Positions 48,301 through 52,014 of a DNA stretch of 64,000 bases are shown in pieces. Made by a program: the position numbers and the translations under genes. The stretch's first letter is position 1, and every line of letters begins with the position of its first letter. The notes beneath the pieces are model-generated. The model did not search any database. It was not told the origin of the DNA and saw only the letters and a list, made by a program, of their open reading frames with translations. Source of the DNA: Pseudooceanicola nanhaiensis DSM 18065 (GTDB lineage: Bacteria > Pseudomonadota > Alphaproteobacteria > Rhodobacterales > Rhodobacteraceae); contig NZ_JHZF01000015.1 in NCBI RefSeq assembly GCF_000688295.1, positions 1 through 64,000 of the forward strand. The letters run 5' to 3'.

Positions 48301-50031
48301 TCAGGTCTCCTTCGATCCGGTGAAACCGGAGATCTTCACCACGACCGAAAGCGAATAGCTCTCGTCGGTCTCGGTCACCTCGGTGCGCGAGCCGAGCTGC
48401 ATGGCGAAGGCGTCGATCAGCTGGTTGCCGAGGCCGGTCCCGTCGGGCACGTCGCCCTGCAGGTGCATGGGCGTGCCGCGCGAATTGGTCATCGTGAAGC
48501 GGAAGCGCCCGCCGTCGAGTTCCTTCATCGTCACTTTCACCCAGGGAAGGCTGCCGTCGACCGGCCGGCCGAGGTACTTGACGGCATTGGTCGCCGCCTC
48601 GGTCGCGAGCAGCGAGAGCGGCACCGCCTGGTCGGGGTAGAGGACGATCTCGTCGGTTTCGATCTCGACCCGGACGCTGTCCTCGCCGGGCAGGGCGGAT
48701 TTCAACGTCTGGCCGAGGATGTCATGGAGCAGGCTGTCGGCGCGCAGCGAGGCCAGGCGCGAGGTGTGGTAGAGGTTCGAATGCACCGTCGCGAGGCCCA
48801 GGACGCGGTCCTGCACCCGCTTGAGGGTGGACCGGGTCTCGCTCTCGCGGGCCTTGCGGATCTCCATGTTCATGATCGAGGCGATGAGCTGGAGGTTGTT
48901 CTTCACCCGGTGGTGGACCTCCTTCAGCAGCACGTTCTTCTCGTGGAGGTTGTTCTCGAGCTCGGCCGTGTCACGGGTGATCCGCTCGGCCATGTTGTCG
49001 AAGCTCTCCTCCATCTGCTTCAGCTCGGACGGCGCGCTGTCGCGGGTGATCGCGCCGGCGGGGACGAACTGAACGCCATTGGTGGAGAATTCGCGCATCT
49101 TCCGGCGGAGCGCCCGGATGTGGCGGATCACGAGGCGGTGCACGGCGATATAGGCGACGATCAGGCTGATGGCCCACATCAGCAGCGGGAAGGCGAGCGC
49201 CGCGCGTGCCATCAGCGGGCCGTTCGCCGAGGGGTCGGTCGGCTCCCAGACCGCGAAGGCGATGGCGACGCCGGGGATGATCGGCACGACGGAATAGATC
49301 CGTTCGGCCCCGGTCCGGTCGTCGGCGACGAAGGTCGTGGCGCGGCGGTAGAGGAACGAGGTCAGGTCCCGGAACGCGGGCAGTTGCGACCGCGCCGTGT
49401 CGATGTCGCCGGGGGCCATGATGACCTCGCCGTCGGCGTTCAGCGTGATGACGTTGATCGGCGTGCGGCCCTCGACGTAATTCGGATCGAGCTGCACGTT
49501 CTCGCGCGGGAGCGACAGGGTGATATGGCCGATCAGGTCCATGTTGTCATAGACCGGCTGGGCGATCAGGATCACCGGCCCGCCGGTGATCGCCCCGCGG
49601 TCGACATAGGTGAAGAGCCGCCGAGGCTCCTCCCGCATCTGTTCGAAGGTCTTCGAGCCCGAGAGATCGGCGAAGCGGCTTTCGGAGTTGCAGTTGGTCT
49701 GCCCCTCGCTGTCGACGAAGGTGGCGAGCGAATAGGAGGGGTGCGAGCGGACGAAGCCGCGCATCAGCTCTGAACAGGCCTCGGGATCGTTTCGGATGGG
49801 CACGAGGGCGCCGCCGAGGACTCGTGCCGCGGCGAAGCCCTCGTGAATCAGGTCGCTCTGCGATTCCACCGTCGAGAGCGTCAGGCCGATGAGCGCCGAA
49901 CGGGACAGCTCATCGGCCTGATCGATCACGTGGCTCGTCTGGTAGAGCGAGATGAGCCCCACGGGCAGAAGGGCGATGGAAAGCATCGCCACGACCCTCG
50001 TGCCGAGGCTTTCGAACAGGCGTTTCCGCAT
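48301..50031 (-). CDS. sensor histidine kinase of the general stress response (PhyK-like, HisKA_2/HWE type)
   Basis: The 576-residue protein has two membrane helices (VVAMLSIALLPVGLISLY and FPLLMWAISLIVAYIAV) enclosing a periplasmic sensor domain of about 240 residues (CaChe-like), then a HAMP-like linker. The kinase core has EVHHRVKNNLQLIASIM, with the phospho-His near residue 374, and a degenerate HATPase (LATEAATNAVKYLG, DGTGLGNQLIDAFA). This type phosphorylates PhyR. An alternative start at 50064 overlaps ecfG. Gene order ecfG-phyK downstream of nepR and opposite phyR supports the role. The inducing signal is unknown. Confidence 0.9.
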   Translation of the reverse strand: MRKRLFESLGTRVVAMLSIALLPVGLISLYQTSHVIDQADELSRSALIGLTLSTVESQSDLIHEGFAAARVLGGALVPIRNDPEACSELMRGFVRSHPSYSLATFVDSEGQTNCNSESRFADLSGSKTFEQMREEPRRLFTYVDRGAITGGPVILIAQPVYDNMDLIGHITLSLPRENVQLDPNYVEGRTPINVITLNADGEVIMAPGDIDTARSQLPAFRDLTSFLYRRATTFVADDRTGAERIYSVVPIIPGVAIAFAVWEPTDPSANGPLMARAALAFPLLMWAISLIVAYIAVHRLVIRHIRALRRKMREFSTNGVQFVPAGAITRDSAPSELKQMEESFDNMAERITRDTAELENNLHEKNVLLKEVHHRVKNNLQLIASIMNMEIRKARESETRSTLKRVQDRVLGLATVHSNLYHTSRLASLRADSLLHDILGQTLKSALPGEDSVRVEIETDEIVLYPDQAVPLSLLATEAATNAVKYLGRPVDGSLPWVKVTMKELDGGRFRFTMTNSRGTPMHLQGDVPDGTGLGNQLIDAFAMQLGSRTEVTETDESYSLSVVVKISGFTGSKET

Positions 50032-50044
50032 GGGGCGGGCGTCT

Positions 50045-50602
50045 TCAGCTGGCGGAGCGGGCATTGGCGGCCAGGACGGCCATGGTGGACTGATCCGTCA
50101 GTTCCATGCTCTCGCTCTCGTCGAGCTCGAGCAATTCCGCCAATTTCGCGCGTCCGCGGTTGGCGCGGCTCTTGATCGTCCCGACCGCGCAATTGCACAT
50201 GTCGGCCGCCTCTTCGTAGGAGAAGCCGGAGGCGCCGACAAGCACAAGCGCTTCGCGCTGTTCGTCGGGAAGCTTCGCGAAGGCGGCCTCGAAGTCCTTC
50301 AGCGCCAGACGCCCGTCGTGATCGGGCTTCGAAGCGAGGTTGGCCGAGAAGACGCCGTCGACGTCAGCGACCTCGCGCTGCGCCTTGCGGCGGCCCGAGT
50401 AGAAGGTGTTCCGAAGGATGGTGAACAGCCAGGCGCGAAGGTTCGTGCCCTGCTGAAACTTGTCGAATTTCGTCCAGGCCTTCACCACTGTGTCCTGCAC
50501 GAGGTCATCCGCCTGCGCGGAATTCCGGCACAGGCTCATCGCGAAGGCGCGAAGGGCTGGAAGATGTTCGACGATGGCATCACGAGGATCGGAGCCGCTC
50601 AT
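50045..50602 (-). CDS. ecfG: EcfG-type general stress sigma factor
   Basis: The 185-residue ECF sigma factor has region 2 (SAQADDLVQDTVVKAWTKFDKFQQ, LRAWLFTILRNTFYSGRRK) and region 4 (LPDEQREALVLVGASGFSYEEAADM, GTIKSRANRGRAKL). The latter two segments are typical of the alphaproteobacterial EcfG group. It drives the general stress regulon when NepR is titrated by phosphorylated PhyR. Its ATG overlaps the stop of nepR (ATGA), so sigma and anti-sigma are made together. Confidence 0.95.
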   Translation of the reverse strand: MSGSDPRDAIVEHLPALRAFAMSLCRNSAQADDLVQDTVVKAWTKFDKFQQGTNLRAWLFTILRNTFYSGRRKAQREVADVDGVFSANLASKPDHDGRLALKDFEAAFAKLPDEQREALVLVGASGFSYEEAADMCNCAVGTIKSRANRGRAKLAELLELDESESMELTDQSTMAVLAANARSAS

Positions 50603-50754
50603 CTTGCGCCGCCGTTGTCTTCTTTCGCCTTGAGCTGCTCGAGAAGCTGCTTGAAGCGATCTGGAAGATCCTCTTCGACCTTTTCCTGATAGACCCGCCT
50701 CAGGTTTTCGTCGATCTGCCGTCGAACGTTGTCATTTTCGCTGTCGTGCGCCAT
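50599..50754 (-). CDS. nepR: anti-sigma factor NepR
   Basis: The 51-residue protein has the NepR core: IDENLRRVYQEKVEEDLPDR, then FKQLLEQLKAKE. NepR wraps EcfG region 2 and 4 and is displaced when phospho-PhyR binds it. The AAGGG site before the ATG and the ATGA overlap with ecfG give tight stoichiometry. Confidence 0.94.
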   Translation of the reverse strand: MAHDSENDNVRRQIDENLRRVYQEKVEEDLPDRFKQLLEQLKAKEDNGGAR

Positions 50755-50792
50755 GATCCCTTATCGATTGTGCCGGTGCGTTGAAAAACTTC

Positions 50793-50817
50793 GGAACCTA
50801 ACGCCGATGGTGGCGTT
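50793..50817 (+). promoter_or_regulatory. EcfG-dependent promoter of phyR
   Basis: GGAAC (50793-50797), N16, CGTT (50814-50817) is an exact match to the EcfG consensus. Transcription would start near 50824, about 30 nt before phyR. It shares almost all its length with the divergent promoter on the other strand. Confidence 0.88.
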
Positions 50818-50824
50818 TGGTTCC
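50800..50824 (-). promoter_or_regulatory. EcfG-dependent promoter of nepR-ecfG-phyK
   Basis: On the minus strand GGAAC (50824-50820), N16, CGTT (50803-50800) is again an exact consensus. It directs the nepR operon and gives positive feedback on the sigma gene. The -35 and -10 of the two strands interleave, so two holoenzymes could not occupy both at once. Confidence 0.88.
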
Positions 50825-50853
50825 CAGAAAATACGAAAAAGGTGCCAGTTTCC

Positions 50854-51666
50854 ATGAACCAACCCGTAGCTACCGAAGATTTCGTCACGAATGTGGCGCA
50901 AGAGCTTCCGTTTCTGCGACGTTACGCCCGCGCTCTGACAGGGAGCCAGCAATCCGGGGACAATTACGCGGCAGCCACGCTCGAAGCGATGCTCGAGGAT
51001 CCGGACCTCGTCGACCGGTCGATCTCGACCAAGGTCGCCCTGTTCGGTGCCTTCCACGCGATCTGGACCAGCTCCGGTTCCCCCGTCGAAGAGGCCGAGA
51101 CCGGCCTGAAGGCGCGTGCGCAGCTCCATCTGAAGCGGCTGACGCCCAACACGCGCGAGGCGCTGCTCCTGCACACGATCGAGGAATTCAACTTCAACCA
51201 GATCGGCCAGATCATGATGGTCGGCGAGGCGGAGGCCGAGGAGCTCGTCCGCATCGCCCAGCAGGAACTCTCCGAGAGCGTGACCGGCAAGGTCATGATC
51301 ATCGAGGACGAGGCGATCATCGCGATGGACCTCCAGAGCATCGTCGCCGACATGGGCCATGCCGTGACCGGTGTCGCCCGCACGCGCGACGAAGCGGTGA
51401 AGCTGGGCCAGGCCGAGACGCCGGATCTGATCTTCGCGGACATCCAGCTGGCCGACAATTCCTCCGGGATCGACGCGGTCAACGATCTGCTGGGCCAGCT
51501 TGGCGACGTGCCGGTGATCTTCATCACCGCCTTCCCCGAGCGTCTGCTGACGGGCGAGAAGCCCGAGCCCGCATTCCTGATCACCAAGCCCTATACCGAG
51601 GAGCAGGTCCGCCTTGCCGCGAGCCAGGCGATGTTCTTCTCCTCGACAGAGACGCTGCACGGATAA
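50854..51666 (+). CDS. phyR: PhyR, anti-anti-sigma response regulator
   Basis: The 270-residue protein has an N-terminal sigma-like domain (LPFLRRYARALTGSQQSGDNY, LTPNTREALLLHTIEEFNF) which mimics EcfG, and a C-terminal receiver with IIEDEAIIAMDL, phospho-acceptor Asp 196 (FADIQLADNSSGID), Thr (ITAFPE) and Lys (ITKPYTEEQ). Phosphorylation frees the sigma-like domain to capture NepR. The ATG at 50854 is preferred; a GTG at 50842 is possible. It is followed by an ideal terminator. Confidence 0.96.
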   Translation: MNQPVATEDFVTNVAQELPFLRRYARALTGSQQSGDNYAAATLEAMLEDPDLVDRSISTKVALFGAFHAIWTSSGSPVEEAETGLKARAQLHLKRLTPNTREALLLHTIEEFNFNQIGQIMMVGEAEAEELVRIAQQELSESVTGKVMIIEDEAIIAMDLQSIVADMGHAVTGVARTRDEAVKLGQAETPDLIFADIQLADNSSGIDAVNDLLGQLGDVPVIFITAFPERLLTGEKPEPAFLITKPYTEEQVRLAASQAMFFSSTETLHG

Positions 51667-51689
51667 CCCTCGGTTGCAGCCAAAGAGAA

Positions 51690-51717
51690 GGGCGGTTCCG
51701 CGAGGAACCGCCCTTTT
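51690..51717 (+). terminator. Rho-independent terminator of phyR
   Basis: A perfect 10-bp stem GGGCGGTTCC/GGAACCGCCC with tetraloop GCGA is followed by TTTT. It lies about 25 nt after the phyR stop. Confidence 0.92.
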
Positions 51718-51752
51718 CGGTTGGACTTGTCCCCTCACTCGGGGCTGCCGTT

Positions 51753-51923
51753 TCAGGGCGTGCGGCCACGCACGGCCCGGGCAATCATCGCGACGATGAA
51801 CAGGACCAGGAAGATCACGAACAGCACCTGGGCGATGCCGGCCGATGCAGAGGCGATCCCGCCAAACCCGAAAACGGCGGCGACGATCGCAATGACAAAG
51901 AAGGTAAGAGCCCACCAGAGCAT
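51753..51923 (-). CDS. DUF1328 family small membrane protein
   Basis: The 56-residue protein has two membrane helices ([20 protein letters not shown] and [20 protein letters not shown]) and ends RGRTP. It matches the DUF1328 (YtjA) family, common in stress regulons. AAAGGA lies 7 nt before the ATG. Its own EcfG promoter is upstream, so it belongs to the general stress regulon. The function is unknown. Confidence 0.92.
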
Positions 51924-51988: not shown

Positions 51989-52014
51989 AACGCGTCAATT
52001 TTTGAAATCGTTCC
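51989..52014 (-). promoter_or_regulatory. EcfG promoter of the DUF1328 gene
   Basis: On the minus strand GGAAC (52014-52010), N17, CGTT (51992-51989) matches the consensus exactly. It would start RNA near 51982, leaving a leader of about 60 nt before the DUF1328 gene. Confidence 0.85.

Follow-up and report, generated by a model that had tools for sequence, protein, structure and literature searches.

The divergent genes phyR and nepR-ecfG of Pseudooceanicola nanhaiensis DSM 18065 are separated, in the window (the whole stretch of 64,000 nucleotides analysed), by an intergenic region in which two perfect matches to the sigma-EcfG promoter consensus occupy nearly the same 32 bp, one on each strand. 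This locus raises the question of what such an arrangement is (two promoters, one promoter with a by-product match, or a palindromic operator) and, if both promoters work, why they are kept on top of each other. The genes flanking the element were identified using Pfam and NCBIfam as those of PhyR, NepR and an ECF sigma factor, as a sequence-only reading of the locus had proposed; its coordinates for GGAAC-N16-CGTT on both strands were exact. The genes and the parts of the element are as follows.

48301..50064, minus strand: HWE/HisKA_2 histidine kinase, PhyK-like, downstream of ecfG (PF07568, PF07536; NF051872)
50045..50602, minus strand: ecfG, ECF sigma factor, 185 aa (PF04542, PF08281; NF009198)
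50599..50754, minus strand: nepR, anti-sigma factor, 51 aa (PF18557 NepR, E 4e-17)
50793..50824, no strand assigned: interleaved bidirectional EcfG promoter element (predicted), from sequence, inverted repeat and a geometry common to 137/174 loci
50793..50797, plus strand: -35 box GGAAC of the phyR-facing promoter, from sequence
50800..50803, minus strand: -10 box CGTT of the nepR-facing promoter, spacer 16, from sequence (NGTT at spacer 16/17 in 130/138 sites)
50814..50817, plus strand: -10 box CGTT of the phyR-facing promoter, spacer 16, from sequence (NGTT at spacer 16/17 in 128/138 sites)
50820..50824, minus strand: -35 box GGAAC of the nepR-facing promoter, from sequence
50854..51666, plus strand: phyR, response regulator / anti-anti-sigma factor, 270 aa (PF22029, PF22233, PF00072; NF006623 PhyR family)
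51753-51923, minus strand: small DUF1328 protein gene, adjoining phyR and convergent with it (PF07043)

The stop codon of nepR overlaps the start codon of ecfG, as read from the sequence, and the kinase scored 181 bits against NF051872, under the curated PhyK cut-off of 750. A GC-rich hairpin followed by T residues (51687-51718) lies in the gap where phyR and the DUF1328 gene converge and is likely a terminator common to both. Another EcfG-type match, GGAAC-N17-CGTT, is located upstream of the DUF1328 gene on the minus strand (51989-52014).

The plus-strand match, 50793-50817 (GGAACCTAACGCCGATGGTGGCGTT), faces phyR, and the minus-strand match, 50800-50824 (GGAACCAAACGCCACCATCGGCGTT), faces nepR-ecfG. 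Together they form an imperfect 32-bp palindrome, GGAACC-T-AACGCC-GATGGT-GGCGTT-T-GGTTCC, between phyR on the plus strand and nepR-ecfG on the minus strand, with 92% complementarity between its arms (50793-50805 and 50812-50824). Read from left to right, the phyR-facing -35 box comes first, followed by the nepR-facing -10 box, the phyR-facing -10 box and the nepR-facing -35 box, and each promoter's -10 box sits within the spacer of the opposite promoter. Transcription from EcfG promoters starts approximately 6-8 bases beyond the -10 box; the predicted starts, ~50823-50825 for phyR and ~50792-50794 for nepR-ecfG, both map to the outer edge of the opposite promoter's -35 box. The element thus combines a GGAAC -35 box, a CGTT -10 box, a spacer of 16-17 and a position upstream of core stress-response genes, as expected of sigma-EcfG promoters. 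We assign a probability of roughly 0.7 to the reading that the 32 bp are two opposite, fully overlapping and mutually exclusive sigma-EcfG autoregulatory promoters, an EcfG version of the bidirectional promoter.

Such a pair is neither a chance match nor peculiar to one genome. Over the whole genome (4.66 Mb), GGAAC-N16/17-CGTT generated 85 matches versus 31 for the reversed control, and 50793-50824 was the sole overlapping opposite-strand pair among the matches listed. Searching 241 genomes of the order for a strict four-box pattern, GGAACNNAACGN{9,11}CGTTNNGTTCC, gave a single match in each of 44 genomes, and its reversed control gave 0 matches in the same 241 genomes. All 44 strict sites adjoin phyR, 42 by coordinate comparison and 2 (G046 and G047) by tblastn. 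In a 289-genome sample of the class, the strict pattern occurred in the window's own genome and in one other (G467). Just one strict interleaved element (locus L286, 1501-1532) was found elsewhere than at phyR; it precedes a minus-strand gene for a single-domain response regulator, and its other direction leads into the 3′ end of an SMP-30-like gene.

For comparison beyond the strict pattern, we located PhyR at genus, order and class level as well as in a named genome collection, added further upstream regions and removed duplicates, which gave 222 phyR upstream regions, 174 from the order and 48 from outside it. The interleaved layout, defined as facing GGAAC boxes with a span of 31-33 bp, was present in 137 of the 174 order loci (79%). 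The sequence-only reading had singled out the exact interleaving with equal spacers, and had named a search of relatives' phyR-nepR regions as a test that could refute it; the overlap was kept in these relatives, and the trait is family-wide. Spans between GGAAC and the facing GTTCC in the 174 loci were 31 (12 loci), 32 (79), 33 (47), 27 (10) and 28 (1), and any other span from 15 to 60 occurred at most twice. nepR is divergent in 137/137 interleaved loci, and the interleaved layout is absent from the four loci that have no nepR within 900 bp. An apparent in-line order, with phyR upstream of nepR-ecfG, in L032, L035, L036, L041, L045 and L050 was an orientation artefact, and the same element was found there. 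Ruegeria pomeroyi (L095) carries this element too.

Spacers were counted over the 136 interleaved loci in which neither -10 box has more than one mismatch. The commonest pairs were (16,16) with span 32 (57 loci) and (17,17) with span 33 (36 loci); 13 loci had other equal combinations, and 30/136 combined one spacer of 16 with one of 17. The equal spacers emphasized in the sequence-only reading are therefore the commonest case but no rule. What is constant is the spacer on each strand: indels fall at differing places within the element and the internal gaps differ, as in (16,17,32), (17,16,33) and (17,17,32), yet each promoter retains a spacer of 16 or 17. A spacer kept per strand under a varying span is what a pair of promoters would give and a single rigid dyad would not; the two-promoter anatomy is conserved, and the spacing rule holds on both strands. 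An operator for a dimeric regulator, with the promoter match incidental, would account for the dyad symmetry of the element and for the one interleaved site (L286) that is not between divergent genes. Such an operator would not be expected to vary in span from 31 to 33 with insertions at different places while each strand keeps 16/17, to carry box letters that equal the EcfG consensus, or to have its strict site confined to the EcfG regulator locus across the 241 genomes of the order. We rejected it on the variable span with constant spacers, and consider it very improbable.

The -10 boxes themselves were compared over 138 sites. CGTT was present on the phyR side in 88 (64%) and on the nepR side in 95 (69%), NGTT in 128 (93%) and 130 (94%), respectively, and the sequence that separates the -10 boxes has next to no information content. 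If only one direction worked and the other match were a by-product, one side should be regularly weaker; neither is across the order. A weaker -10 box on a single side does occur in some loci (phyR side 38, nepR side 28), and only the nepR side is kept in Paracoccus (see below), both in favour of a single working direction, a reading that is improbable. We looked in the 136 loci for a seesaw, with one -10 box weakening as the other strengthens, and none was visible: mismatch classes 0/0, 1/0, 0/1 and 1/1 contained 59, 38, 28 and 11 loci, and independence predicts ~14 in the last class.

The two-promoter reading leaves the question of why the overlap persists. Shortage of space is ruled out as its cause, as 37 interleaved loci have a gap to nepR of more than 150 bp (maximum 331, measured from the NepR HMM start) and keep the overlap; historical inertia is still compatible with this. 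Under inertia, both promoters work and the anatomy is the same, and only the benefit of the overlap is denied: the layout arose once in the family ancestor and persists, because separating the shared bases needs duplication or several coordinated changes. Conservation could thus reflect the difficulty of separating interleaved promoters by mutation. A FastTree PhyR tree of 142 rows, with the 961-base loci (including most merged forms, below) left out, fits the single origin within the family. The interleaved state required 5 changes on this tree versus 39 with shuffled labels, counts that are approximate because many forks are open. The order's rows derive from an interleaved background; the layout was lost once at the base of Paracoccus and singly elsewhere. 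On this tree the interleaved layout is ancestral to the family Rhodobacteraceae and was lost mainly in Paracoccus.

The exceptions to the layout bear on the same question. A merged form with a span of 27-28, GGAACC-N15-GGTTCC, is located between nepR and phyR in L211, L215, L217, L222, L224, L236, L240, L246, L249 and L260, and merged loci with divergent nepR were also found outside the order, in another family (L264 and L267). In this form the opposing -35 box supplies the GTT of each -10 box, so most consensus bases are common to both putative promoters. The form obeys the 16/17 spacer rule and depends on an NGTT -10 box other than CGTT. Flexible EcfG -10 boxes are documented in Sphingopyxis (PMC7083833). 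The Paracoccus-type loci (L072, L079, L081, L084-L086, L106-L108, L198, L219, L229 and L234) have the nepR-facing match only, without a phyR-facing EcfG promoter; a conserved CTTGTGCGCAC-like motif lies directly past their nepR-facing -10 box. The layout seen most often outside the order has the two promoters back to back, 8 bp apart (10/48 loci; GTTCC-to-GGAAC offset 13), and an interleaved element upstream of phyR was found in three genomes of one genus (L273, L274 and L276), possibly of independent origin. These three elements, between nepR and phyR, have a conserved interior, GGAACCAACGGGGAAG...GCATTGGTTCC. Some lineages can do without the exact overlap, as the merged and Paracoccus forms show. 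Inertia alone sits less easily with an overlap retained across deeply diverged lineages, long intergenic regions included, with a phyR side that can be lost, as in Paracoccus, and with the 27-bp merged form and the three elements outside the order, which suggest that a tight overlap is either favoured or easy to reach.

Recognition by EcfG and steric exclusion between the two orientations would be expected from established knowledge. The EcfG holoenzyme would bind the element in either orientation, never both, and start either phyR or nepR-ecfG; one orientation would be occupied at a time because the polymerase footprints would coincide. That overlapping promoters of this kind could not hold two holoenzymes, as had been proposed from the letters alone, is supported by the geometry and by E. 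coli, where overlapping divergent promoters are known to exclude each other sterically (PMC12825309). The further proposal, that exclusive occupancy, which the geometry implies, makes the PhyR and EcfG/NepR loops alternate and the stress response noisy or bistable, fared poorly. Both directions would be positive autoregulatory outputs of one sigma, and stress, by freeing EcfG from NepR, would make them rise together. In a toy simulation with invented parameters, exclusion alone gave protein correlations of only -0.05 to -0.24, and variation of sigma between cells reversed them to +0.16 to +0.59. At E. coli acrA/acrR, the one case measured, polymerase interference lowered noise (PMC12825309). 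Alternating or noisy expression is thus unlikely, and a switch of this kind is very improbable.

A benefit of exclusive promoters may instead lie in the ratio of their outputs. The ratio of initiations would be fixed by the relative promoter strengths and constant at any free-sigma level, because under exclusive binding both rates share one denominator (derivation), whereas for separate promoters of different affinity the derivation and the toy model let the ratio drift toward saturation. In the toy simulation, whose invented parameters illustrate logic only, the initiation ratio was 2.00-2.02 for exclusive promoters and fell from 1.93 to 1.16 for separate ones. A constant initiation ratio would keep PhyR and NepR-EcfG supplied to the partner switch in a fixed proportion; at the protein level this would also require stable ratios of mRNA and protein turnover. 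No competition was seen at basal activity in E. coli bidirectional promoters (PMC12825309). Ratio-holding as the reason why the overlap is kept is a tentative suggestion, to which we give less than even odds. The fuller proposal, that Rhodobacteraceae make PhyR and NepR-EcfG from one exclusive EcfG site as a ratio-holding device, with a synthesis ratio independent of sigma activity and selection keeping the site interleaved or merged, is rather doubtful. The modest effects of overlap on protein levels in the toy model also fit historical inertia, which we regard as a serious candidate short of an even chance. Both accounts share the two-promoter anatomy.

EcfG autoregulation and bidirectional promoters are each already known. 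No description of interleaved EcfG promoters was found in the open-access papers searched, which is weak evidence of novelty; what is apparently new is the interleaved, sometimes merged EcfG pair as an ancestral control element of the Rhodobacteraceae stress-response core. If this is true, feedback in the core of the general stress response of a large, ecologically important family would hinge on one shared, exclusive promoter. The loci form a natural geometry series, interleaved (31-33 bp), merged (27-28 bp), one-sided (Paracoccus) and back to back (other alphaproteobacteria), which allows direct tests of the effect of promoter overlap on sigma / anti-sigma / anti-anti-sigma stoichiometry.

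Among known systems, the element resembles the bidirectional promoters that Warman, Grainger and colleagues described in E. coli and other prokaryotes, in which RNA polymerase binds a short pseudo-symmetrical DNA in two mutually exclusive orientations and produces divergent mRNAs (PMC12825309). In those promoters the starts flank a shared -10 element or fall inside it, mostly 18 and also 10 or 23 bp apart (PMC12825309). Pseudo-symmetry and divergent genes are present here, and mutually exclusive orientations may be expected from the geometry. Unlike the Warman and Grainger promoters, this element has separate -10 boxes in opposing spacers, outermost -35 boxes and an ECF sigma, and with predicted starts ~30 bp apart it falls outside the class as defined by starts at a shared -10 element; it would work like a bidirectional promoter with a different geometry. 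It also resembles the autoregulated EcfG promoters of nepR-ecfG and phyR in alphaproteobacteria, for example Sphingopyxis (PMC7083833), in its GGAAC-N16/17-CGTT consensus, its target genes and its predicted positive autoregulation. In the other alphaproteobacteria examined, however, the two EcfG promoters mostly lie apart or, as in 10/48 loci outside the order, back to back, whereas here they are interleaved.
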